From contig NC_019680.1 in NCBI RefSeq assembly GCF_000316685.1, forward strand, positions 1,241,501 to 1,305,500: DNA of 64,000 nucleotides, given 5' to 3'. Below are positions 6,009 through 31,670 of the stretch, in pieces (within the stretch, counting starts at the first letter, position 1; every line of letters starts with the position of its first letter). Made by a program: the position numbers and the translations under genes. A model generated the notes under the pieces. That model saw nothing but the letters and a program-made list of their open reading frames with translations, ran no database searches and was not told where the DNA came from. This DNA is from Synechococcus sp. PCC 6312 (GTDB taxonomy: Bacteria > Cyanobacteriota > Cyanobacteriia > Thermosynechococcales > Thermosynechococcaceae).

Positions 6009-7163
6009 CTAAACTGGTTCTGTGGCAAACCCAAGCAAATAAGCAACACTAACCAGGCCCAGGAGACTAAAAACAGCAATTTTATATCGGCCTGGATGGT
6101 AAGGCCACAGAAGGAGTAAAAACAAGTATAAATCTAAAAAGACCCGACTATAGTCTGTAAATAGATTGAGAATTTGTAACTTTGCCAAGATAAACATCAG
6201 GCTATACAGCCCACCCGCTAAAACAATTTCTGGTTGCTTACCCCAGGCCGGCCTGGCTGCTAAACCAATGCCAATAACAACTGCAATTTGCAGTAGAAAC
6301 ACAATCATGTCTAAACCCTGGGTCAAACTGATTGGGGTAGTGATTAACACCTGTACCTTGGCCAGAATTCCAGTCAAGGGCCAACTAAAATGTGTCCCTA
6401 AGCTTTGACTATCCCAGGCTGTCCCTAACCGCTGGCGTAAATAGAGATTCCATAATCCCCAAGGCAGTAGGGCCAAAGGTGCAAGAACCAAGTCCGGTTT
6501 ACGGCGTTTTAGGCCACTGGTCATGACAAGGGCGAACCAGATTAAAAGGGTTGTTTCTCTGGTTAAGATGGCCAAGGCCTGCCAAACCCAGGTTAGCCAA
6601 GAGTTGTTCTGCCGATAATGCCGCAGGGTTAGAATGACCAAGGTTGTACTCAATAGGTCGGCCGTGGCAATACTGAAGCTAATCCACAGGCCAGGAATGG
6701 TTAAAAATAGCAGCGGTAAGGAGGAGGGTTGCTTCGGTAATAATTCTCCCAGGCCCCAAACGCTGACCCCAAAACAGAGAATGTTAACCAGCACTAAGGT
6801 ATAGGGAATCCAGCCCGGTTGGCCCAAACCCAAAAACCAGCCCAAAAATGGATAAAAAATCCGCCGATAGCGATAGGCCGGCACATCCAAGGACTTCAGG
6901 GTTTGCGGATTCCCCAGGCCTGGGTCTAAAGCAATGGTGAGGAACTGTTGACCGTCATGGCCTGTTTTGCCTTGGTGAATAAAGACTGATTCTGCGGACA
7001 AATAGGGGGAAACGGGTATGACATCACCAATCCGAAAAAAACCGGTAACCTGACCCTGAAATTTCCCAACCCCTAAGATCAGGGCAATCACCAAACTCAA
7101 GCCCATGGCCAGCAGTGGATAGAGAACTTGACGGCGAATGGGGGCAGAAAGATTGTTGATCAT
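6009..7163 (-). CDS. Polytopic membrane protein, probable glycan-assembly or glycosyltransferase-C-like protein
   Basis: 384 residues with about nine hydrophobic segments; the first runs from about residue 12 to 32 and is followed by a large extracytoplasmic loop containing GHDGQQFLTIALDPG and AYRYRRIFYPFLGW. A D-x-Q-type first loop in a multi-spanning protein recalls GT-C enzymes and the AZOBR_p60025 family linked to cell-surface glycopolymer formation, but I cannot align it here. It is read 23 bp upstream of the DPM1-like glycosyltransferase and probably co-transcribed with it, which supports a lipid-linked sugar function. Confidence 0.6.
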   Translation of the reverse strand: MINNLSAPIRRQVLYPLLAMGLSLVIALILGVGKFQGQVTGFFRIGDVIPVSPYLSAESVFIHQGKTGHDGQQFLTIALDPGLGNPQTLKSLDVPAYRYRRIFYPFLGWFLGLGQPGWIPYTLVLVNILCFGVSVWGLGELLPKQPSSLPLLFLTIPGLWISFSIATADLLSTTLVILTLRHYRQNNSWLTWVWQALAILTRETTLLIWFALVMTSGLKRRKPDLVLAPLALLPWGLWNLYLRQRLGTAWDSQSLGTHFSWPLTGILAKVQVLITTPISLTQGLDMIVFLLQIAVVIGIGLAARPAWGKQPEIVLAGGLYSLMFILAKLQILNLFTDYSRVFLDLYLFLLLLWPYHPGRYKIAVFSLLGLVSVAYLLGFATEPV

Positions 7164-7265
7164 TAGCTTCTAAGTCTCTACAACGCGCCAAAATAACTGA
7201 GGAACTGCCCTAATTTTGTCTGTCGTAGCCCAACATACCCCGACTCTGACCGTTTTGAACCAGAC

Positions 7266-7275
7266 CCAGGCCTGG
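7266..7275. repeat. CCAGGCCTGG highly iterated palindrome (example copy)
   Basis: One of at least 17 perfect copies that I located in the window: 7266, 11363, 13993, 15215, 20770, 23125, 31673, 35910, 37149, 37250, 38597, 40102, 42893, 45939, 50201, 51568 and 51691. They lie in both genes and intergenic DNA. The half-site CCAGGCC/GGCCTGG is far more frequent still. Confidence 0.9.
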
Positions 7276-7354
7276 GACTCTGACCAAATCACCGAAACCG
7301 TCTAAAGTGGAAAAAATACCCCCATCATCTGCACATTTCCGAAGCGTCTTCACT

Positions 7355-8281
7355 ATGGTCAGCAGCGACACCCCCTTTCTTCCCATTGCCTACCTCCAGG
7401 GTGAATTTATTCCTTTTACAGATGCGAAACTTTCTGTTGCGACCCATGCCCTCCATTACGGAACAGCCGCCCTCGGTGGTTTACGGGGAATCCCCAATCC
7501 AAATAACTCCCAGGAAGTATTTTTATTTCGCTTAGAGGATCATGCCCGCCGCCTCAGCAATTCCGCCCGCTATCTGGCCTATGATCTACCGGCTAGTCAG
7601 ATTAAACATCTCTTGATTGAATGGGTGCAACGCAACAAACCCCAGGCCCCGTTTTATATTCGGCCATTGGTGTATACGTCTGGGTTAGGGATTGCCCCGC
7701 GGTTGCATCAGGTGGAAAAAGATTTTCTCATCTATGGCCTGGAGTTGGGGGATTACTTGTCGCCGGATGGGGTGAGCTGTCGGATTAGTTCCTGGGAGCG
7801 ACAGAGTGATCGGAGTTTTCCCTTGCGTGGCAAGTTAACAGCTTCCTATATTGTCTCGGCCTTGGCGAAAACAGAAGCGGTGGAGTCGGGGTTTGATGAG
7901 GCAATCCTGCTCAACGATCAAGGCAAAATCTGTGAAGCCTCGGGGATGAATTTGTTTATTGTCCGGAATGGGGTGCTGATTACGCCGGGGGTAGATCAAG
8001 ACATTTTGGAAGGCATTACCCGCAACAGTGTGATCCAGGTAGCTCGGGATTTGGGGATTAGCGTGATGGAGCGGCCGGTAGATCGGACGGAGGTCTTAAT
8101 TGCCGATGAAGTTTTTTTGACCGGAACCGCGGCGCGAGTTGTCCCTGTTTCAAAAATTGAAAGTTATATGCTCCCGACCGAACGCCCGATCACTCAACAA
8201 CTCCAGGCCCTGCTGAAGGCCATTACCCACGGGCAAGAACCGAACTATCGGCAATGGGTGGATGTCATTCCCTTAAGCTAG
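7355..8281 (+). CDS. ilvE: Branched-chain amino acid aminotransferase (PLP fold type IV)
   Basis: Transaminates leucine, isoleucine and valine with 2-oxoglutarate; cytosolic. Family signatures include THALHYGTAALGGLRG near the N-terminus, FRLEDHARRLSNSARYL, the PLP-lysine segment RGKLTASYIVSALAKTEAV, the GFDEAILL and EASGMNLF signature, and ILEGITRNSV. I take the ATG at 7355, which places FLPIAYLQGEF near the N-terminus as in related proteins; a GTG at 7307 would add 16 residues with no family resemblance. The final 15 or so residues are variable. The D-amino-acid transaminase/ADC lyase subgroups share this fold, but the length and motifs favour IlvE. Confidence 0.87.
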   Translation: MVSSDTPFLPIAYLQGEFIPFTDAKLSVATHALHYGTAALGGLRGIPNPNNSQEVFLFRLEDHARRLSNSARYLAYDLPASQIKHLLIEWVQRNKPQAPFYIRPLVYTSGLGIAPRLHQVEKDFLIYGLELGDYLSPDGVSCRISSWERQSDRSFPLRGKLTASYIVSALAKTEAVESGFDEAILLNDQGKICEASGMNLFIVRNGVLITPGVDQDILEGITRNSVIQVARDLGISVMERPVDRTEVLIADEVFLTGTAARVVPVSKIESYMLPTERPITQQLQALLKAITHGQEPNYRQWVDVIPLS

Positions 8282-8668: not shown

Positions 8669-11600
8669 ATGTATCCCCCCAACCTGGATAGTCAAAACTC
8701 AGTCTTTGAGACGGGTGTTTCCTTAGCGCCCTCGTTGCAAGGGTTATTTGCCCTGTCTTGGGAGGGCCTGGTTTTCACCGATCGGCTGGGGATTTGTCAC
8801 CACATTAACAATAGTGCTGCCACCATGCTTGGCCTGGACTCAGCAGCTTCCCCACAATCCTATAATCTTCATCAGTTTTTAGGCGTAACCCAAGACCCGG
8901 CCTGGCATACGTGGCAACACAGTCATGATACCTCTGTTGTAGATGGTAACAGCCCTGCCTATTTTCGTGGCACAACTACCCTGACCCGTACCAATGGCCA
9001 AACCGCTGATCTGACCTATGGTGTTACTGCCCAGGCCAATGGTTTTCTATGGATTCTGCCCCCATCCCAACTGATTCAATGGCAAGAAGCAACCGGGCAG
9101 TCTGATTCTCCCGATAAATTAACCCCGGCTTCCTACCAGGCCATTCTGGAAACCCAAACGGAGATGGTTGTCCGGTTTTTACCCGATAGCACCTTTACCT
9201 ATGTCAATCCGGCCTATTGTCAAATGATTGGCAAACCAGCGGCAGAACTCTTGGGTCGGCATTTTCTCGAAGTTATTCCCCCCGATGCCCAGGCCATGAT
9301 GCGAGAAGAACTCTGGGCCATGAATACCCTCACCCCCAAACATCCCTTTCGAGTTGTGATTAACCCCAGCATTGGTCACGATGGCAGTCAGATCTGGCAT
9401 GAATGGACAAATATCGCCCTTTTTGACAACAACGACACCATTATTGAGTTCCAGGCTACGGGGCGCGACATCACGGCTGACTATAACTTCACCCGCACCC
9501 TCAAAGCTGCCAAAGATCGCCTACAACTGGCCTTGGAAATTGCCGAAATAGGTTACTGTGACTGGGACTTACGCAGCAATCGTCTCATTTGGTCAGACGG
9601 CTATGAACAACTCATGGGCCTGGCTCCAGGAACCTTTGACCAGCGGATTGAAACCTTTATGGGCCTCGTACATCCTGAAGATCGGGCCCGAGTTCAAACC
9701 GTCATTGACGACATTATCCAATCTCACCAACAGCGAACCGTTGAATTTCGGATTGTCAGACCCAGTGGGGAAATTCGCTGGTTTTTGGCCCGTGGGACAG
9801 CGATTTACGATGATCACGGCCACCCAGTCCGCTTTACGGGCGTGGACATGGATATTACGGCGCAAAAACTCCGGGAACAGGAATTGCAATATCAACGGGA
9901 TTTACGGGAACTGTTGTTTAACGAATCTACAGATGCGATGTTTTTGGTGGATCCCCACACTGTCCAAATTGTGGATTGTAATCCCCGTGCTGTTGAATTA
10001 TTTGAAGCTGATAAAAAGTCAAATCTGATTGGTTTAGCCGGCCATACCCTCCATGTCCGCCCCTTCACTGCTGCAGAAGTCGAGGCCAACGTTACCCAAA
10101 TGCACAGTCAGGGGTTTTGGACAATGGAAATCGAATATCAAACCCTGAAAGGCAATCGGTTTTGGGGAAATATTGCTGCTAAACCGGTCACCATTGCTGG
10201 CCGCCCCCACAGCTTTGTCCGCGTTAGCGATATTTCCCGGTGGAAACAAGTCACCCTCGCCTCAGAGTTAAGTGAACTGCGGTTTCGGACCATTTTTGAC
10301 CAGGCCGAGTTGGGCATTGCCATCTGTAGCGCTCCAGACTTTCGGATTGATCAGAGTAATCCTTGTTTACAAAATCTCCTGGGTTACACGGCAGAGAAAC
10401 TTAAATGCTTGGGGTTTGAACACATTACCCATCCCGATGACCTTGGCCTGGAGCAACCCTTTATTGATGAGTGTTTAGCTGGAACCCGTGATCATTACCA
10501 ACTCGAAAAGCGGTGTCTCACTAAAACGGGAGAAATTCGCTGGGTTAGTTTTTATCACACGACTGTCCGGGATGCCACTGGGCAGATTCAATTCGCTTTT
10601 GCTTTTTTTAAGGACATTAGCAACCGCAAACAGGCAGAACTTGCACTCCAGGCCAGTGAAGGACGCTTCCGAGCTTTGTTTGAGCAGGCTGTCTTTGGGA
10701 TTGTCTATGGTGAACTTTCCGGTGAGTTTGTATCGGTAAATCAAGCCTTTACGGCCATTACGGGCTACACCGAAGTTGAATTGCAAAACCACAGCTTTCG
10801 TACCATTACTTACCCTCCCGATTTAGACCGAGAACAACCACTAGTTCAAGCCCTGATGGCTGGCGAAATCCATTCCTATACACTCGAAAAACGCTATATC
10901 CGCAAAGATGGTTCCTTAGTTTGGGTTTTGGTAACCATTAACAAAATCTTTGATGATTCCGGTTGTGTCGTTGGTGGTATGGGAATTGTCCAAGATATTT
11001 CTGAACAGAAAGCTTTAGAAGCTCAACTGGAAACCAACCGCCGTAAATACCAAACTCTTTTTGAAGTCATACCTGTGGGAATTCTCGTCACCGATAAGCA
11101 GGGCCAGATCCTCGAAGTCAACCCAGCTTCTGAGCAAATTTTGCAATTGCCCTCAGCGGAACATAAGCGGCGGGGCCTAGGTAGTGCAAGTCAGAACCCA
11201 TGGGTTTGTTATCGCAGTGATGGAAGCTTGTTGCCTCCTGATGAGTATCCATCTGTAATTGCCCTCAATCAAAATTGCGCCCTACAGGGACTTGAGGTTG
11301 GCTATGAGCGACCCGATGGCGAATTGATTTGGTTAGATGTCACCGCCGCGCCAATTCCAATCCCAGGCCTGGGTGTAGTTTTAACCTATATAGACGTAAC
11401 TGAACGCAAACGCACCAGCCAAGCTCTTCGAGATAAAGAAACCAGTTTACGCCTGGCCCTAGAAGCTTCTAATCAAGGGTTTTATGATCTGGATATTGTG
11501 ACTGGCGAGGCCCAAACCGACTTTGGCTATGATGAAATGCTCGGCTATGCCCCCGGTGAATTAGTTCATAGCCTTGACTCTTGGCAAGCCAGTCTTCACC

Positions 11601-20379: not shown

Positions 20380-20685
20380 TTACAAGGCAATTGGATTGTG
20401 AACCGTGACTAACTTTGTCCCATCGGGAAAGGTGGCTTCAACTTGAACTTCAACAATCATGTCTGGGACACCTTCCATCACATCTTCGCGGGTTAAGAGG
20501 GTTGCCCCATAGCTCATTAAGTCTGCGACAGTGCGGCCGTCTCTGGCTCCTTCTAAAATTGCGGCACTGATGTAGGCAACGGCTTCGGGATAATTTAACT
20601 TCAGGCCGCGGGCCCGACGACGTTCGGCCACCAGGGCAGCGGTGAAGATCAGTAACTTGTCTTTTTCCTGTGGTGTCAGTTGCAT
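20380..20685 (-). CDS. ureA: Urease gamma subunit
   Basis: 101 residues beginning [23 protein letters not shown], with [21 protein letters not shown], the [10 protein letters not shown] signature and [28 protein letters not shown], an almost textbook UreA. It forms part of the (alpha-beta-gamma)3 nickel enzyme that hydrolyses urea to ammonia and CO2. It begins six bases after the ureD stop, so the two are one operon. ureB and ureC do not follow; the next gene downstream is the HicA-like one. Confidence 0.97.
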
Positions 20686-20691
20686 TAATTT

Positions 20692-21561
20692 CTAGACTCC
20701 CCAAACTCTGGGTACACAAACAACACGCCCTAAAAATAATACTCGCAATAGCCCCCAAACGGCGATAAACCAGGCCTGGGCTGCCCCCCGATCATGGCCC
20801 CGATAGCGACAAATCAGCCCCGCAGCTAACCGACTCACCCCAATATCCGTCAGCGGGCCTGGCCATAATGCTCTGGCGTCCTGAATGATGGTACTGCTAA
20901 CCTCTTGACCAATGAACACTAAATTTCCCACAACGGGACAGCCATTTAAGCCATGCAGGCCATGAAAATTCTCAGGGGTACCGGGTAGCCATTGCCGATC
21001 AATCCAAAGAGGAGTCCCATCCTGCCACACTTCTGTATGGGATCGCCAATTTCCTGCTGTGAAAAATTCTTCCCGAGCCGTGCGTCCAAACCGAGTCATA
21101 TCCCAGGCCAGCCATAAGCCTCCAGTCGCTAAATTCACCCGCATAAATTGCTGATAGTGAGCCTGGTTAAACATGATTGTGTCTTGGGGTAACCATTCTA
21201 AACAGGCCTGGGGGGCAATATTCAGTTCAATGGTTTGGGTGACAGGGTGATTTGGGTTGCGATAGACCTTACTGGCGGCTGCGGTGGTTAACAGAACTTG
21301 GGACTGGGCCTGGAGATCGAGTTGGATATTCAGGTGATCCCCGCCCACCATGCCCCCGGCGGTATGCAGCATCACACTATGACAAACTTGAGGCGATTCA
21401 GGATAAAAGGGGCGTTGAATTCTCAGGGGTGCTTTGGCATAGGCCTGGGTAATTTCTGTCCGGTCATTGTGCCAGCGATAATTGAGCCATAAGTCACCCT
21501 GCCAGGTAGAAAAGTCAGGCTTGCCGATAAGTTGATTATTTTGCAGAATTGGCTGAACCAC
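20692..21561 (-). CDS. ureD: Urease accessory protein UreD
   Basis: About 289 residues. UreD with UreF and UreG loads nickel into apo-urease. Recognised from LRIQRPFYPE, VMLHTAGGMVGGDHLNI, LLTTAAASKVYR, the LEWLPQDTIMF motif and MTRFGRTAREEFFTAG. There is no ATG near the beginning; I take the GTG at 21561 with an AGGA about eight bases upstream, a TTG at 21582 being the alternative. Either start overlaps the end of the upstream cytochrome gene. ureA follows at once. Confidence 0.92.
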   Translation of the reverse strand: MVQPILQNNQLIGKPDFSTWQGDLWLNYRWHNDRTEITQAYAKAPLRIQRPFYPESPQVCHSVMLHTAGGMVGGDHLNIQLDLQAQSQVLLTTAAASKVYRNPNHPVTQTIELNIAPQACLEWLPQDTIMFNQAHYQQFMRVNLATGGLWLAWDMTRFGRTAREEFFTAGNWRSHTEVWQDGTPLWIDRQWLPGTPENFHGLHGLNGCPVVGNLVFIGQEVSSTIIQDARALWPGPLTDIGVSRLAAGLICRYRGHDRGAAQAWFIAVWGLLRVLFLGRVVCVPRVWGV

Positions 21562-23581
21562 TGGGCCGTTCCTGGTTGTCAATAAAGGTGGCTAAATCCC
21601 AGGCCTCTTGGGGAGTCAGATTCCCATCAAATTGATAGGGCATATTGCCGTGGATAAACTCAGCCATAGTATTCAGGCGATGCAGGCCAGCCAATTTATT
21701 AAAAGACTGTTCCCCCCACAGAGCCGGCCGATAATAGGTATCCGTTTGATAACGTCCTTGCCCATCGGTATTGTGACAAAAACTGCATTTCTGTTGAAAA
21801 ATGGCCTGCCCCCGTTGGGAATTGCCCGTCAGTTGCGGAATCGGCGGAAAAGGTGTTTTGGGTCGGGGAATGTCTAACACCTGGGCCTGTTCATCCAGCC
21901 ATTGCATATAGGTAATCAAAGCCCTAAATTCCGGTTGATTGGCAGTAATCGGGAAGGGTTTACCATTCAGGCTATGTTCAAAACACTGGTTGATCCGTTT
22001 TTGTAAGTTGGTTGTTTGGGGATATTCATATTTTTCCATCATCCCTAACCAGGCCGAGGCTTTCGGATTTCCCCCTCCATTTAAGTGACAGCTTTGGCAG
22101 TGGAGTTTGGCCACGGGGACATTTTCCGGCAAGAGTTCATAGGTTTGGGTCGTTAACTGATAGCCCCGGAGAATACTATTCCACTGTTCTGTATCCCAGG
22201 CCGAGACGGGTTTAGCAGGCGGGGGAATGATTTGAGTCTGAGCAGGTTGGGGTTGGGCATAGGCCAGGGTAAAAGTAAAGTCTGAGGCGGTATATTGATT
22301 CGGATTAACACCCCGGGCAATGGCATGACACCCCATACAGGAAGAGGTTTTCTGGATATAGGTTTCCATGGTCGTATTGGCTAATATGGGTGGCTTGACC
22401 TGGAAAACAGTTTTGGGAGTCGGGTCGATTTTGGCTTTTGGTAAGGGCCATTGGGTATTGACCAATTCGTAATATTGCCAGACGGAATTTTTCAGGCCGG
22501 CTTGGATGGTTTTGTTGAGTTCCGCGACATTATCTATGGCCTGGTTGGGTTGGTTGCAATCCGGGTTTTGGTTGGGAATCGGGGTTAAGCGGGTGACTTG
22601 ATTGGGAACATGGGCCTGAGTTTGATGATTCGCCAGACAATCGGGACAGTGGGGATTAAAAAAGGAGGGCTGCTCACCCCGGACATTATCCACTTGTTCA
22701 TAGGTTGACCAAATCCATTGAGGCGCGCTGGCGGTTTTGTGCATGATGTGAAAACCCACCAGGCCCATGCGTATTTCTTGATAGGTGGCTTTGGTCAGAT
22801 CAGCACGATCAGAAACGTAGGCCGAAACTGTATGAAATCTGGCTTCTTCGGTCGGCTCTACTTCTCTCCAGGCCGCTTTGATTAAAATTGCCCCATTGGG
22901 AAAGTTAAATTGTTCCAGTTTGGCCTGGTGGTTGGCATCGTAAAGTTTGTTTTGCACCACATAATCAAAAGCCACTTGGTTCATCCGAATTTCGTAGCGG
23001 ACAATCCGACCCTGTTGATCCGTTAAGGTTCCGGGTAAGGCCAGATCCGCTTTTGTGGGTTGAAATTCATCGGACAAGACTTCATCCACTTTGCTTTGGC
23101 GATAGAGGATTTTTAGGGGTTTTCCCAGGCCTGGGGGTAAGGGGGCCGCAGCATTCCAGGGTAAAGGTTCACGGCCATCGGGCAAATAGACTTCACTGGT
23201 TTCTTTCCAGGTTTCCCAAACACGCGGGGCCACGGCATTGATGTTTACGGTTTGATCCGGAACACCTCGGACTCCAGATTTAGCTGGCCAATTCAAGGCG
23301 ATAAATTCCTGCCAAGCAAAGAGATCCGCCGCCCGTTGCACCACATTCAAATTTTTCTGTTGTAAATTACCCTCGAGATCCTGGGGAAGCTGCCAAGAAA
23401 TTTCCGGGGATTTCAGCGGGGCCTGGCAAACGGTGGGCAACGAAATTGAACGGGGGGCCATAGCGCGACTGGGAATCAGAGAACTCCCCAAGACAATTAC
23501 CGCACTGACCATAATGACCGTAAACACCAGGCTGGGGAGGGTGAGCCATGCCTTCACTCGCTGCAACGTGATTCCCTTCAT
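21536..23581 (-). CDS. Triheme c-type cytochrome with TsdA-like (thiosulfate dehydrogenase) C-terminal domain
   Basis: 681 residues with an N-terminal membrane anchor or signal (about 15-41). Three CxxCH haem sites are seen: CMGCH 415-419, CQSCH 495-499 and CSFCH 599-603; CPDCL near 312 is not a haem motif. Residues about 490-675 match the TsdA pattern: CQSCHLNGGG, KRINQCFEHSLNGKP (Cys533 fits the unusual haem ligand cysteine of TsdA), QEFRALITYMQWLD-like helix, a second haem with DGQGR, LWGEQSFNKLAGLHR, the NMP methionine and FIDNQERP. TsdA joins two thiosulfates to tetrathionate. The first 410 residues are a separate domain also known from uncharacterised cytochromes. The C-terminal function is inferred; it overlaps ureD by 26 bases. 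Confidence 0.75.
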   Translation of the reverse strand: MKGITLQRVKAWLTLPSLVFTVIMVSAVIVLGSSLIPSRAMAPRSISLPTVCQAPLKSPEISWQLPQDLEGNLQQKNLNVVQRAADLFAWQEFIALNWPAKSGVRGVPDQTVNINAVAPRVWETWKETSEVYLPDGREPLPWNAAAPLPPGLGKPLKILYRQSKVDEVLSDEFQPTKADLALPGTLTDQQGRIVRYEIRMNQVAFDYVVQNKLYDANHQAKLEQFNFPNGAILIKAAWREVEPTEEARFHTVSAYVSDRADLTKATYQEIRMGLVGFHIMHKTASAPQWIWSTYEQVDNVRGEQPSFFNPHCPDCLANHQTQAHVPNQVTRLTPIPNQNPDCNQPNQAIDNVAELNKTIQAGLKNSVWQYYELVNTQWPLPKAKIDPTPKTVFQVKPPILANTTMETYIQKTSSCMGCHAIARGVNPNQYTASDFTFTLAYAQPQPAQTQIIPPPAKPVSAWDTEQWNSILRGYQLTTQTYELLPENVPVAKLHCQSCHLNGGGNPKASAWLGMMEKYEYPQTTNLQKRINQCFEHSLNGKPFPITANQPEFRALITYMQWLDEQAQVLDIPRPKTPFPPIPQLTGNSQRGQAIFQQKCSFCHNTDGQGRYQTDTYYRPALWGEQSFNKLAGLHRLNTMAEFIHGNMPYQFDGNLTPQEAWDLATFIDNQERPSGSANSAK

Positions 23582-29195: not shown

Positions 29196-30209
29196 TTATT
29201 CAACCTCGCCTGAGAGTGTGACCTTCCCCCGAAAAACCACGTAATTGTAGATATTGTAGAACAACATGATTGGGATTAAGAACCCGATAAAAATAATCAT
29301 AAAGACTAGGGAACTGGGAGCTGCCGCGGCCTGGTAGATGGTGACACTGGGGGGAATGATGTAGGGGAAAATGACCAGGCCCAGGCCAACAAAGGACAAC
29401 ATAAAAATCAAGATAGTCAAAATAAACGGCATTCGTTCTTCCTGCTTGCCCAAGCTTTGCAACAATAGCCCAATCAAGAAAATTCCCAGCAATGGTATTC
29501 CCAAAAAGATAAAGACTAAGGGAGGCTCAAACAGGGTGGGGCGAATGTGATCAGACAAGATCGGCGTACTGACTGTAATAAAACCCGCTCCAATCAAGGT
29601 CGTCCAGGCCGCAAGTTTAGCCGTCTTAAAGTGAACCAGTTGGAGGCTACCCGTGGTTTTCATAATCAAATAGGTCGAGCCAATCAAGACATAGCCCTGA
29701 ATCAGCGTCAACGCGACTAAAATTGACCGCCAACTCAACCAGTCCCACATTCCCCCAATAAAATGCCCCGCTGCATCTACGGCAATCCCTTCAAAAATAC
29801 TTCCCAAGGCAAAACCCTGGCCCAAGGCCGCCAGAAAGCTCCCCACGCCAAAGGCCCAATTCCAAAACAACTTGCGATTGGCATTTTCCCGAAATTCAAA
29901 GGCCACCGCCCGTAAAATCAACCCAACAATCATCACCACCGCTGGCAGATAGAGGGCATTGAGAACCGTGCCATAGGCCAAGGGAAAGGCTCCAAACAGT
30001 GCACCCCCCATCAACACTAGCCAGGTTTCATTGGCATCCCAAACATTGCCTAAGCTGGTCATCAAAATACTGCGGCGTTCTTCACTGGAGCTCGTTAGGG
30101 AGAGAATCCCAATCCCCAGATCAAACCCATCGAGGAGAACATACAAGAATAAAAAAAGACCGAGAATAAAAAACCAGACTTGGGGGAGAAATTGGGCTAA
30201 GGGTTCCAT
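29196..30209 (-). CDS. cydB: Cytochrome bd-type quinol oxidase subunit II
   Basis: 337 residues from the ATG at 30209, which is preceded by GAGG six bases upstream. Eight or so membrane spans; the N-terminal FILGLFLFLYVLLDGFDLGIG and SLGNVWDANETWLVLMGGALFGAFPLAYG are diagnostic of CydB/CioB. With CydA it forms the bd/CIO oxidase that takes electrons from plastoquinol to oxygen in cyanobacterial thylakoid or cytoplasmic membranes. It begins 21 bp after the cydA stop. Confidence 0.96.
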   Translation of the reverse strand: MEPLAQFLPQVWFFILGLFLFLYVLLDGFDLGIGILSLTSSSEERRSILMTSLGNVWDANETWLVLMGGALFGAFPLAYGTVLNALYLPAVVMIVGLILRAVAFEFRENANRKLFWNWAFGVGSFLAALGQGFALGSIFEGIAVDAAGHFIGGMWDWLSWRSILVALTLIQGYVLIGSTYLIMKTTGSLQLVHFKTAKLAAWTTLIGAGFITVSTPILSDHIRPTLFEPPLVFIFLGIPLLGIFLIGLLLQSLGKQEERMPFILTILIFMLSFVGLGLVIFPYIIPPSVTIYQAAAAPSSLVFMIIFIGFLIPIMLFYNIYNYVVFRGKVTLSGEVE

Positions 30210-30230
30210 TGTCATCCTCACGTCATAGGG

Positions 30231-31670
30231 TTATTGCTGGGCTTCAATGGGACGCTGATCCGGTTGGTGCTGGGCCGGAATTTCCAGACTGGGTAAAACT
30301 TCCACCCCCGGAATTGGCAAGGACAGGTTGGGGCCTTTACGAATAATCCGACTGCCAAAATACAGGGCAGCGACAAATAGGGCTGAGTAGAGGACGGTAA
30401 ACCCAATTAAGGAAAAGAGAACTTCCCCGGCCGGCAAATGGGAGGCCGCATCCACGGTGCGAATTTCCCCATAGACTGTCCAAGGTTGGCGGCCCACACA
30501 GCGAACAATCCAGCCCGTTTCGACGGCTAAGTACCCCAAGGGAGCCGCAAAGATCCAGGCCCGTAATGTCCAAGTTTGCTGGGCAATCACTCCCGGTTTT
30601 AACCGTCCCAGGCCCCACTGAAGCACTGTCACCAGCATTAACCCCACCAGGAAAAAGCCAATCCCACTCATGATCCGAAAGGAATAGAAGATTAAGCCAA
30701 TCATGCGGGGGCGATTTTCGGGGGGGAAGTCTTTAAGCCCTTTAACGGGTGCGCTCAGGTTGGGTTTGAGTTCGAGGATGTAACCGAGGGCCTGGGGAAT
30801 TTTAAGCTCCCAATCATTGGTTGCGGTTTTCTCATTAGGTAAGGCAACGAGTGTCCAATCCGCAGGTTGTCCCGCCGGAAGCGTTTTCCATTGGCTTTCA
30901 ATGGCGGCAAGTTTGGTGGGTTGGTAGTGATAGACCTGCTCAGCACTGAGGTGACCAATGAAAATTTGCAGCGGGGCAACGGCAATGGCAGCAGCCAGAA
31001 CAATTTTGAAGGAACGGCTAAAGAACTCGACATGGCGGCTTTGAAGAATGTACCAAGCACTGATCCCGCCAATGACAAACAAAGAGGTTTCCAGTGTGGC
31101 AAAAAACATATGGAGCACACTGTTGAGCATGAAGGGATTAAAAATGGCCTGGAAATAATCAGCCACCAAGAATTTACCCGCCACAAATGTTCCGCCCGCC
31201 GGAGTTTGTAACCAGGAATTAGCGACTAAAATCCAAAATGTGGAGAGGTTGGCCCCAAAGGCAACCATGATTGTCGCCAGGTAGTGAATTGCGGGTGGAA
31301 CGCGCCCCCAGCCAAAGAGCATGATCCCTAAAAAGCCCGCCTCTAACATAAAAGCCATGGAGGCTTCAAACCCTAAAATGCTGCCAAAAAAGTCACCCAC
31401 GGCTTCGGAAAAAGGGGCCCAGTTTGTCCCAAATTGAAATTCCATTGGTAAACCAGAGGCGACACCAATCCCAAAGTTCAACACATACAACTTCGACCAA
31501 AACCGCGCATGGTGGTAATAATCTGAGTTGCGGGTTTTCAGCCACAGGCCTTCGACAATGACTAAATAAATAGCCATCCCCGTGGTTAAAATTGGCCAAA
31601 GCATATGAAAAATCGCCGTCAATGCAAACTGCATCCGGGAAAGGGCAACTGAATTCGCAAGAATATCCAT
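30231..31670 (-). CDS. cydA: Cytochrome bd-type quinol oxidase subunit I
   Basis: 479 residues. RMQFALTAIFHMLWPILTTG carries the haem-ligand His region; SGLPMEFQFGTNWAPFSEAVGDFFG, MAFMLEAGFLGIMLFGW and VGRQPWTVYGEIRT are family signatures. The quinol-binding Q-loop between spans 6 and 7 is short, as in cyanide-insensitive (CioA) oxidases. In the GWxVxExGRQPW motif the sequence is GWIVRCVGRQPW, so the Glu position that ligates haem b595 in E. coli (Glu445) appears to be Cys. Operon with cydB. Confidence 0.95.
   Translation of the reverse strand: MDILANSVALSRMQFALTAIFHMLWPILTTGMAIYLVIVEGLWLKTRNSDYYHHARFWSKLYVLNFGIGVASGLPMEFQFGTNWAPFSEAVGDFFGSILGFEASMAFMLEAGFLGIMLFGWGRVPPAIHYLATIMVAFGANLSTFWILVANSWLQTPAGGTFVAGKFLVADYFQAIFNPFMLNSVLHMFFATLETSLFVIGGISAWYILQSRHVEFFSRSFKIVLAAAIAVAPLQIFIGHLSAEQVYHYQPTKLAAIESQWKTLPAGQPADWTLVALPNEKTATNDWELKIPQALGYILELKPNLSAPVKGLKDFPPENRPRMIGLIFYSFRIMSGIGFFLVGLMLVTVLQWGLGRLKPGVIAQQTWTLRAWIFAAPLGYLAVETGWIVRCVGRQPWTVYGEIRTVDAASHLPAGEVLFSLIGFTVLYSALFVAALYFGSRIIRKGPNLSLPIPGVEVLPSLEIPAQHQPDQRPIEAQQ

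Follow-up and report, generated by a model that had tools for sequence, protein, structure and literature searches.

In the window, the 64,000-nucleotide stretch of Synechococcus sp. PCC 6312 DNA that was analysed, an open reading frame on the minus strand (21536–23581) begins with ATG and encodes a protein of 681 residues with three CxxCH motifs, CMGCH at residue 415, CQSCH at 495 and CSFCH at 599. Cys533 and the tripeptide NMP (646–648) are also present in the translation, and all of these residues stand at the numbers given in the original prediction; the CPDC pair at 312–315 was ruled out as a haem site, as no His follows. Near-full-length relatives in ten loci, with 44–62% identity over the best segment, show that this triheme fusion is a real gene, although in one of the ten (L002) the reading frame is broken by a stop codon. 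Residues 1–42 (23456–23581, minus strand) constitute a probable Sec signal peptide, judged by eye from a hydrophobic stretch and the AMA preceding Pro43, with a helix at residues 7–32 in one structural model; the three-haem protein is probably exported, to the periplasm or the thylakoid lumen.

The 3' end of the gene is overlapped by 47 nt by UreD (20692–21582, as mechanically called), and urease gamma (20380–20685) adjoins this region. The emphasis placed earlier on the neighbouring urease genes is justified as far as adjacency goes, but the arrangement did not recur: with crude gene picking, no relative of UreD or urease gamma turned up near the other fusions whose surroundings were compared, and a functional link to urease was rejected. 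This comparison covered the loci with fetched flanks, and some genes escaped the picker, among them the fusion itself in L006. The neighbour family common to the distant fusions L003 and L197 is the chaperonin Cpn60, a common gene.

The TsdA-like di-haem domain comprises residues 462–676 (21554–22198, minus strand). The C-terminal 215 residues match TsdA (PDB 4wqc) with an E value of 1.8e-28 in phmmer, and both haem motifs fall into the TsdA register, CQSCH 495–499 (22085–22099, minus strand) at the catalytic haem 1 and CSFCH 599–603 (21773–21787, minus strand) at the electron-transfer haem 2. Structure prediction recovered the TsdA fold as well, albeit with a low-confidence model: the nine best Foldseek rows for this part are all TsdA or TsdBA (E 1.2e-8), and VIA gave Z 8.0–8.7. 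Within the catalytic segment R529–S537 (21971–21997, minus strand), R529, C533 and S537 align with Arg119, Cys123 and Ser127 of the A. vinosum TsdA precursor; Arg119 and Ser127 are invariant TsdA residues (PMC4423706), and Cys533 is the candidate ligand of haem 1. N646-M647-P648 (21638–21646, minus strand) occupies the Met ligand position of haem 2, which is Met-ligated in C. jejuni TsdA (PMC5146829). All 15 fusion proteins have R529, C533, S537, G632, M647 and both haem motifs unchanged; the proposal that a TsdA-type di-haem domain, with a Cys ligand candidate and a distal Met, is joined to a further haem-binding domain is upheld.

The first haem domain is nevertheless divergent. Its score against PF21342 (SoxA/TsdA) is 16.8 bits in the window protein, under the curated cut-off of 27, and two other fusions gave no match to this Pfam profile, whereas three solo TsdAs pass with 42.7–49.7 bits; the domain is therefore named TsdA-like, or divergent TsdA, rather than an ordinary TsdA. 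The substrate loop is also shortened: its 9–13 residues in the 15 fusions are 3–7 fewer than the 16 of A. vinosum TsdA and of nine solo TsdAs. In this shortened segment Arg109 is absent from every fusion (0/15) and present in five of the nine solo TsdAs, while Arg610 and Arg618 have been gained in 15/15 fusions and occur in none of the nine. Through such a remodelling of the loop the TsdA half might have come to act on another sulfur anion or a thiol, and no longer on thiosulfate or tetrathionate. Such a change of substrate is nonetheless held to be unlikely, as the equivalents of Arg119, Cys123, Ser127 and Gly221, each a thiosulfate contact or a catalytic residue, are retained throughout (15/15), and Arg109 is a substrate contact that is less well conserved among TsdAs and not a defining feature, its alanine variant having a raised Km but most of the kcat (PMC4423706). 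With a divergent TsdA half that lacks Arg109, thiosulfate or tetrathionate is regarded as a likely, not an assured, substrate.

The fusion occurs in 15 genomes from six phyla, that of the cyanobacterium and five others. To this count 14 fusion proteins contribute, together with L002, also a fusion but interrupted by an in-frame stop, which is represented by its C-terminal part; the fragment L010, which lacks the TsdA part, was excluded. All 15 form one clade with SH-aLRT 100 in a quick tree without bootstrap. In the free tree L002 falls among the 14 labelled fusions, so that these do not form a clade of their own, and forcing them together without L002 was not rejected (p-AU 0.195). The triheme arrangement put forward as new is confirmed as a fusion, but it is not peculiar to a cyanobacterium; no report of a P460-like domain fused with TsdA was among the papers listed in a literature search. 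Among the genomes sampled, the N-terminal domain, fusions included, was detected in 32 of the 146 from Myxococcota, 18 of the 398 from Pseudomonadota and 9 of the 198 from Bacteroidota, all lower bounds since only some candidates were scored per genome; the sampling left out Planctomycetota and Acidobacteriota.

This N-terminal domain spans approximately residues 60–446 (22244–23404, minus strand). The first 410 residues had correctly been recognized as a different domain, but the haem at CMGCH 415–419 (22325–22339, minus strand), originally set apart from it, belongs to this domain: a CxxCH lies near the C-terminus in 72 of 73 N-domains, the exception being the L002 frame, which is broken inside the motif. 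Nor need the domain still be called uncharacterised as to its placement, since it most likely adopts the fold of the cytochrome P460/c'-beta superfamily with an insertion of about 100 residues (approximately residues 300–395; 22397–22684, minus strand), which carries the Cys312/Cys315 pair and is partly low-confidence in the model. In VIA, the top 17 rows, which are 17 entries of six different proteins, are all P460/c'-beta, with Z 5.6–6.4 and matches over nearly whole chains, and the next row has Z 3.3; because a Z below 8 may reflect merely a common arrangement, the sheet fold is accepted with reserve. The five best Foldseek rows likewise belong to this superfamily (E 0.02–0.07). Confidence in the models is modest (pLDDT 66.9 and pTM 0.78 for the N-domain model, pLDDT 57.9 for the one with the helix at 7–32), and both are of low confidence around the haem motif, so that bis-His ligation of this haem may apply.

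At the sequence level the relationship is distant. The window protein reaches 17.5 bits against PF16694 (cytochrome P460), with a curated cut-off of 27, and the Pfam model matches five of the 15 members, below its cut-off. A PDB profile search with the N-domain alone returned one chance match and no P460 chain, and one with the full length had no P460 chain among the best 60 of 83 rows. The assignment consequently rests on the fold comparison and on a profile–profile alignment with the insertion excised, in which hhalign gave 95.8% and a score of 60.4 against a P460 profile of 43 domains (out of 48 P460 loci); the maximum of 60 column-shuffled controls, built on the excised alignment with the haem end kept, was 42.0. 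The bounds of the insertion were picked after inspection of the model, and five choices yielded 95.6–96.5%. With the insertion retained, the values dropped to 55.8% and 35.8, below the mean of the shuffled controls (38.0).

Two residues of the predicted pocket deserve attention. Lys235 (22877–22879, minus strand) aligns in 6/6 alignments with Lys78, the haem cross-linking lysine of Methylococcus P460 (McP460), and His278 (22748–22750, minus strand) in 6/6 with the position of the distal carboxylate, Asp102. Lys235 is conserved in 14/14 fusion rows and 58/59 other rows, L002 being counted among the latter, and His278 in all 73 rows (75 passed the coverage filter, 73 were left after removal of near-duplicates). 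The distal Glu/Asp of P460 proper, found in the active P460s and required for NH2OH oxidation (PMC11928373), is thus replaced by His throughout, a residue that occurs in none of the 43 P460-family rows at this column. For the P460 capping residue no equivalent could be placed in the N-domain.

In TsdBA, the cytochrome TsdB is the redox partner of TsdA. A similar role of built-in redox partner is favoured for the N-domain by one clade of stand-alone N-domains in which a small-subunit gene and a GMC flavo-dehydrogenase lie next door in 7/7 cases, so that the same type of cytochrome accompanies a second, unrelated dehydrogenase. The computation supports both folds, the residues named above, the grouping of the fusions in a single clade and this association of stand-alone N-domains with a flavo-dehydrogenase, and a three-haem, two-module protein that joins a divergent TsdA with a P460/c'-beta redox partner is given about an even chance of being correct. 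If the haem ligands, the cross-link, the substrate, the direction of electron flow and the localisation are as we infer them, the Cys533/His-ligated catalytic haem would make or break the S–S bond derived from thiosulfate, the Met647-ligated haem would pass electrons on, and the mono-haem N-module would serve the haem pair as partner. The reduction potentials call for caution, since wild-type P460/c'-beta haems range from -205 to -424 mV (PMC11928373, Table 3) and haem 2 of C. jejuni TsdA lies at about +172 mV (PMC6879331); a P460-like haem would then be a poor acceptor of electrons from thiosulfate unless its surroundings, for example His278, shift the potential.

The same potential difference would suit an N-domain with catalytic activity of its own: a P460-type haem, cross-linked to Lys235 and served by His278 as the proton acceptor, would oxidise a small nitrogen compound or another substrate and send electrons downhill to the TsdA haems for tetrathionate reduction. 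The near-invariance of Lys235 and His278 fits this proposal, as they map to the cross-link and the carboxylate, the pocket pair tied to NH2OH oxidation. Yet active P460s have a carboxylate and not His at the distal column, NsP460, which is cross-linked but lacks the carboxylate, is inactive (PMC11928373), and the fusions compared have no neighbour in common, among the genes picked, that hints at nitrogen chemistry; the proposal is considered unlikely. The predicted fold is also that of the NO- and CO-binding cytochromes c'-beta, and the N-domain might act as a gas or ligand sensor, or as a regulatory haem that switches TsdA activity. The three c'-beta proteins in Table 2 of the review have Phe or Met (PMC11928373) in place of the Lys nearly invariant here, and the stand-alone relatives of one clade adjoin a dehydrogenase, which makes a sensor improbable. 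A more far-reaching interpretation, offered as a distinctly speculative one, is that a so far unnamed P460 superfamily branch, in which a cross-linked Lys is combined with a distal His replacing the carboxylate, serves as a general dehydrogenase partner or as a second active site; wired to TsdA in one chain, it would be a nitrogen–sulfur bridge enzyme coupling haem chemistry of its own (e.g. NH2OH/NO or peroxide) to thiosulfate/tetrathionate turnover.

For the haem domain the analysis thus offers a probable fold, a superfamily to place it in and two specific pocket residues, and thiosulfate/tetrathionate metabolism gains, in cyanobacteria among others, a proposed partner module not met with in the papers listed in the literature search. 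Hydroxylamine oxidation, gas binding and a peroxidase-like activity are known from the P460 fold (PMC11928373), and a role alongside GMC and TsdA enzymes would add to these.

Compared with the solved P460/c'-beta proteins (PDB 6hiu, 2je2, 6amg, 7s5o, 6hih, 7ead), the N-domain shares the predicted fold, the C-terminal CxxCH and the Lys at the P460 cross-link position, but it has about 390 residues, including the insertion, instead of 135–160, carries a distal His for Glu/Asp, remains below the PF16694 cut-off and is fused to another enzyme. Like the TsdAs of A. vinosum (PDB 4wq7, 4v2k) and C. jejuni, the fusion has two c-type haems, a Cys at the haem 1 ligand position, the equivalents of Arg119, Ser127 and Gly221, and a Met at haem 2, preceded by Asn as in C. 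jejuni (PMC5146829) and not by Lys as in A. vinosum; unlike them, it has an extra N-terminal haem domain, a shortened Arg109 loop and a divergent first haem domain. Alignments with TsdBA of Marichromatium purpuratum (PDB 5lo9) start at residues 247–286 of 5lo9, so the N-domain was not seen to match the TsdB part, and TsdB was not among its VIA matches, which is not evidence of absence. The N-domain has a single haem and most likely a P460-type fold. The TsdA part of the protein matches that of TsdBA, and both proteins join a TsdA to an N-terminal cytochrome in one chain.

The fusion gene of Synechococcus sp. PCC 6312 (21536–23581, minus strand) encodes a 681-residue protein, and its open reading frame and motifs bear out the original prediction of a haem domain joined to a TsdA-like domain, including the residue numbers given for the haem motifs, Cys533 and Met647. 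The translation holds the haem motifs CMGCH (415), CQSCH (495) and CSFCH (599), further cysteines at 52, 312, 315, 342 and 533, and NMP at 646–648. The N-terminus, with its hydrophobic stretch and a site, AMA-P, that resembles a signal-peptidase cleavage site (seen by eye), fits predicted export, which is needed for c-haem attachment. Inside an insertion of the N-domain, the cysteine pair CPDC 312–315 (22637–22648) is a possible disulfide or metal site; a comparable close pair is found in 10/10 fusion rows of alignment A1 and is absent from three of its five stand-alone rows (N-domains without a TsdA part).

The C-terminal module (463–673) matches TsdA of A. vinosum in phmmer (E 1.8e-28), the top match being the K208N variant, whose asparagine the window protein carries natively, and a profile of 15 relatives reaches TsdBA (5lo9) at 5.5e-41 and TsdA at 7.4e-37. 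With the full-length structure model (pLDDT 57.9, pTM 0.52), Foldseek placed nine TsdA/TsdBA chains on top (E 1.2e-8 to 8.8e-6) and VIA returned eight TsdA/TsdBA entries at Z 8.0–8.7. In the A. vinosum numbering taken from PMC4423706, window R529, C533, S537 and G632 align with Arg119, Cys123, Ser127 and Gly221. These residues, together with N646 and M647, are identical in 15/15 fusion proteins, so that Cys533 and Met647, singled out in the original prediction, are both conserved. The loop bearing Arg109 comprises 9–13 residues in the 15 fusions, in contrast to 16 both in the A. vinosum enzyme and in each of nine solo TsdAs (without the N-domain) from the cyanobacterial phylum sample; Arg occupies the Arg109 column in 0/15 fusions versus 5/9 solo TsdAs, while Arg610 and Arg618 are present in 15/15 versus 0/9. 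The family model PF21342 scores the window domain at 16.8 bits, below its cut-off of 27, and has no match at E 1 in two other fusion domains, whereas three solo TsdAs used for calibration reach 42.7–49.7 bits. Because of the loop and Arg109 differences and the low PF21342 scores, the module is, as judged from sequence, a diverged TsdA branch.

The TsdA relationship thus stands in diverged form, but the label "uncharacterised" for the N-domain does not, since by fold and profile comparison it most probably belongs to the P460/c'-beta superfamily. Pfam gave a sub-threshold Cytochrome_P460 hint for the window (E 0.0055) and likewise sub-threshold values of E ≤0.1 in 5 of 15 members (best 0.00058), with no match at E 1 in five more distant stand-alone relatives. 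A second AlphaFold model, covering residues 60–446 alone (14 sequences, pLDDT 66.9, pTM 0.78), was searched against the PDB. The top five Foldseek rows were all cytochrome P460 or c'-beta, at E of merely 0.02–0.07, and the top 17 VIA rows, 17 entries of six proteins aligned over 126–136 residues and almost their entire chains, all belonged to the P460/c'-beta superfamily at Z 5.6–6.4, a range that may reflect merely a common arrangement. The next row was an unrelated protein at Z 3.3, and it is the consistency of the top rows, together with this gap, that leads to the P460/c'-beta reading. In a profile comparison of 73 N-domains (of 75 passing the coverage filter) with 43 P460-family domains, the complete N-domain matched weakly (55.8%, score 35.8), versus 95.8% and a score of 60.4 without residues 300–395. 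Shuffled controls on the excised alignment (n = 60; every column shuffled except the last 45, which contain the haem motif) had a mean of 38.0 and a maximum of 42.0, which the unexcised score fails to exceed, a weakness of the P460 assignment. Five alternative insertion bounds gave 95.6–96.5%, and TsdA profile comparisons, as a specificity control, 3.5–20.9%.

McP460 numbering was set via the 6hiu alignment (Lys78 = K of PDGAILVKLSW, Asp102 = D of ADFMVK), in agreement with Table 2 of PMC11928373. In 6/6 alignments, the unexcised one included, K235 pairs with Lys78 and H278 with Asp102, and C415 and H419 fall on the P460 haem motif in all five that reach that far. Lysine occupies the K235 column in 14/14 fusion rows and 58/59 others, histidine the H278 column in 73/73, and Trp238, Asn402 and Glu406 are likewise invariant among N-domains. 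The 43 P460-family rows hold Lys 33, Met 4, Leu 3, Arg 2 and Gly 1 at Lys78, and Glu 14, Asp 10, Gln 8, Ala 4 and others, with no His, at Asp102. From this mapping and these counts we infer that the N-domain family has kept the position of the cross-linking lysine, which may be cross-linked here too, and carries histidine, a possible base or iron ligand, in place of the proton-accepting carboxylate.

The fusions comprise 15 distinct proteins. Such a protein does occur in cyanobacteria, as originally proposed, in four cases (the window, Synechocystis salina and genomes G076 and G036), but it is found also in Gemmataceae (1), Saprospiraceae (1), Myxococcota (3), Pseudomonadota (5) and a Thermoanaerobaculia MAG (1). 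Full-length fusions are present in 4/386 genomes of the cyanobacterial phylum and matches of any kind in 17/386; others carry separate modules (in G004 and G018, for example, the two lie on separate contigs). N-domain matches, counted with fusions and partial matches and with part of the candidates per genome scored, occur in at least 32/146 Myxococcota, 18/398 Pseudomonadota and 9/198 Bacteroidota genomes sampled. In a quick tree of the 73 N-domains the fusions form one clade of 15 rows (SH-aLRT 100), including the Gemmataceae MAG locus L002, whose N-domain haem motif is interrupted by an in-frame TGA (CM*CH, 9228–9230), either a pseudogene or an assembly error. A single fusion event followed by wide spread would therefore be the simplest reading.

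Across the loci compared, no neighbour is common to fusions beyond close relatives, except for one chaperonin gene at two fusion loci and a bicupin. The latter lies directly upstream of the fusion, on its strand and with a 22–34 bp gap, in three other cyanobacteria (L001 6788–7969, L197 8386–9567, L198 4471–5634), and is absent next to the window gene. The L198 bicupin, in genome G036, exceeds the cut-off of the oxalate decarboxylase family TIGR03404 (338 bits), and those of L001 and L197 were assigned by similarity. Both subunits (I and II) of a cytochrome bd oxidase are encoded at 29196–31670, about 6 kb from the window gene, with no sign of a link to it. In one stand-alone N-domain clade (7 rows, support 99), the cytochrome gene is followed in 7/7 by genes for a small subunit and for a GMC oxidoreductase, apparently a three-gene dehydrogenase (L015 9209–11568, with L059 being the same place; L011, L060, L070, L071, L087, L088). 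The L015 oxidoreductase matches GMC_oxred_C (82 bits), and the small subunit has no more than a sub-threshold match to FAD-SLDH. In another branch a family of 580–600 residues recurs by stand-alone N-domains (L183 3571–5331, itself with no Pfam match; L188 3162–4901; L196 7194–8993). At L184 a 450-residue protein (6921–8270), with P460-like strand motifs and CLSCH seen by eye and no Pfam match, adjoins a stand-alone N-domain and is possibly a further long P460-like family.

No P460–TsdA fusion is reported in the listed titles and abstract openings of the open PMC literature on TsdA, TsdA with cyanobacteria and tetrathionate, triheme fusions, P460 with thiosulfate, TsdBA, P460 with GMC, and domain architecture; in the P460 review PMC11928373 the words fusion, fused and cyanobacteri- are absent. 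Among plasmid records, 85 match the window protein, none covering 80% of the query, and the best 15 of the 85 read "hypothetical protein" or "cytochrome C", or are without annotation at the matched region. The gene product is most probably a P460-superfamily/TsdA fusion built from known kinds, in which the N-domain may serve as a partner module or as a second active site.

Since the N-domain occurs both in TsdA fusions and in the GMC-linked stand-alone clade, it goes with two unrelated dehydrogenases, and this is the main ground on which a putative redox partner module is favoured. Against it, and leaving room for the N-domain as a second active site, stand the low potentials of the wild-type P460/c'-beta haems known so far (−205 to −424 mV, Table 3 of PMC11928373), haem 2 in the C. 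jejuni TsdA lying at +172 mV (PMC6879331). If these potentials are conserved, electrons would pass from the N-domain haem to TsdA, i.e. towards tetrathionate reduction. Oxidised C. jejuni TsdA has as its haem-2 ligand a methionine that directly follows an asparagine (PMC5146829), just as Met647 follows Asn646 in the window protein.
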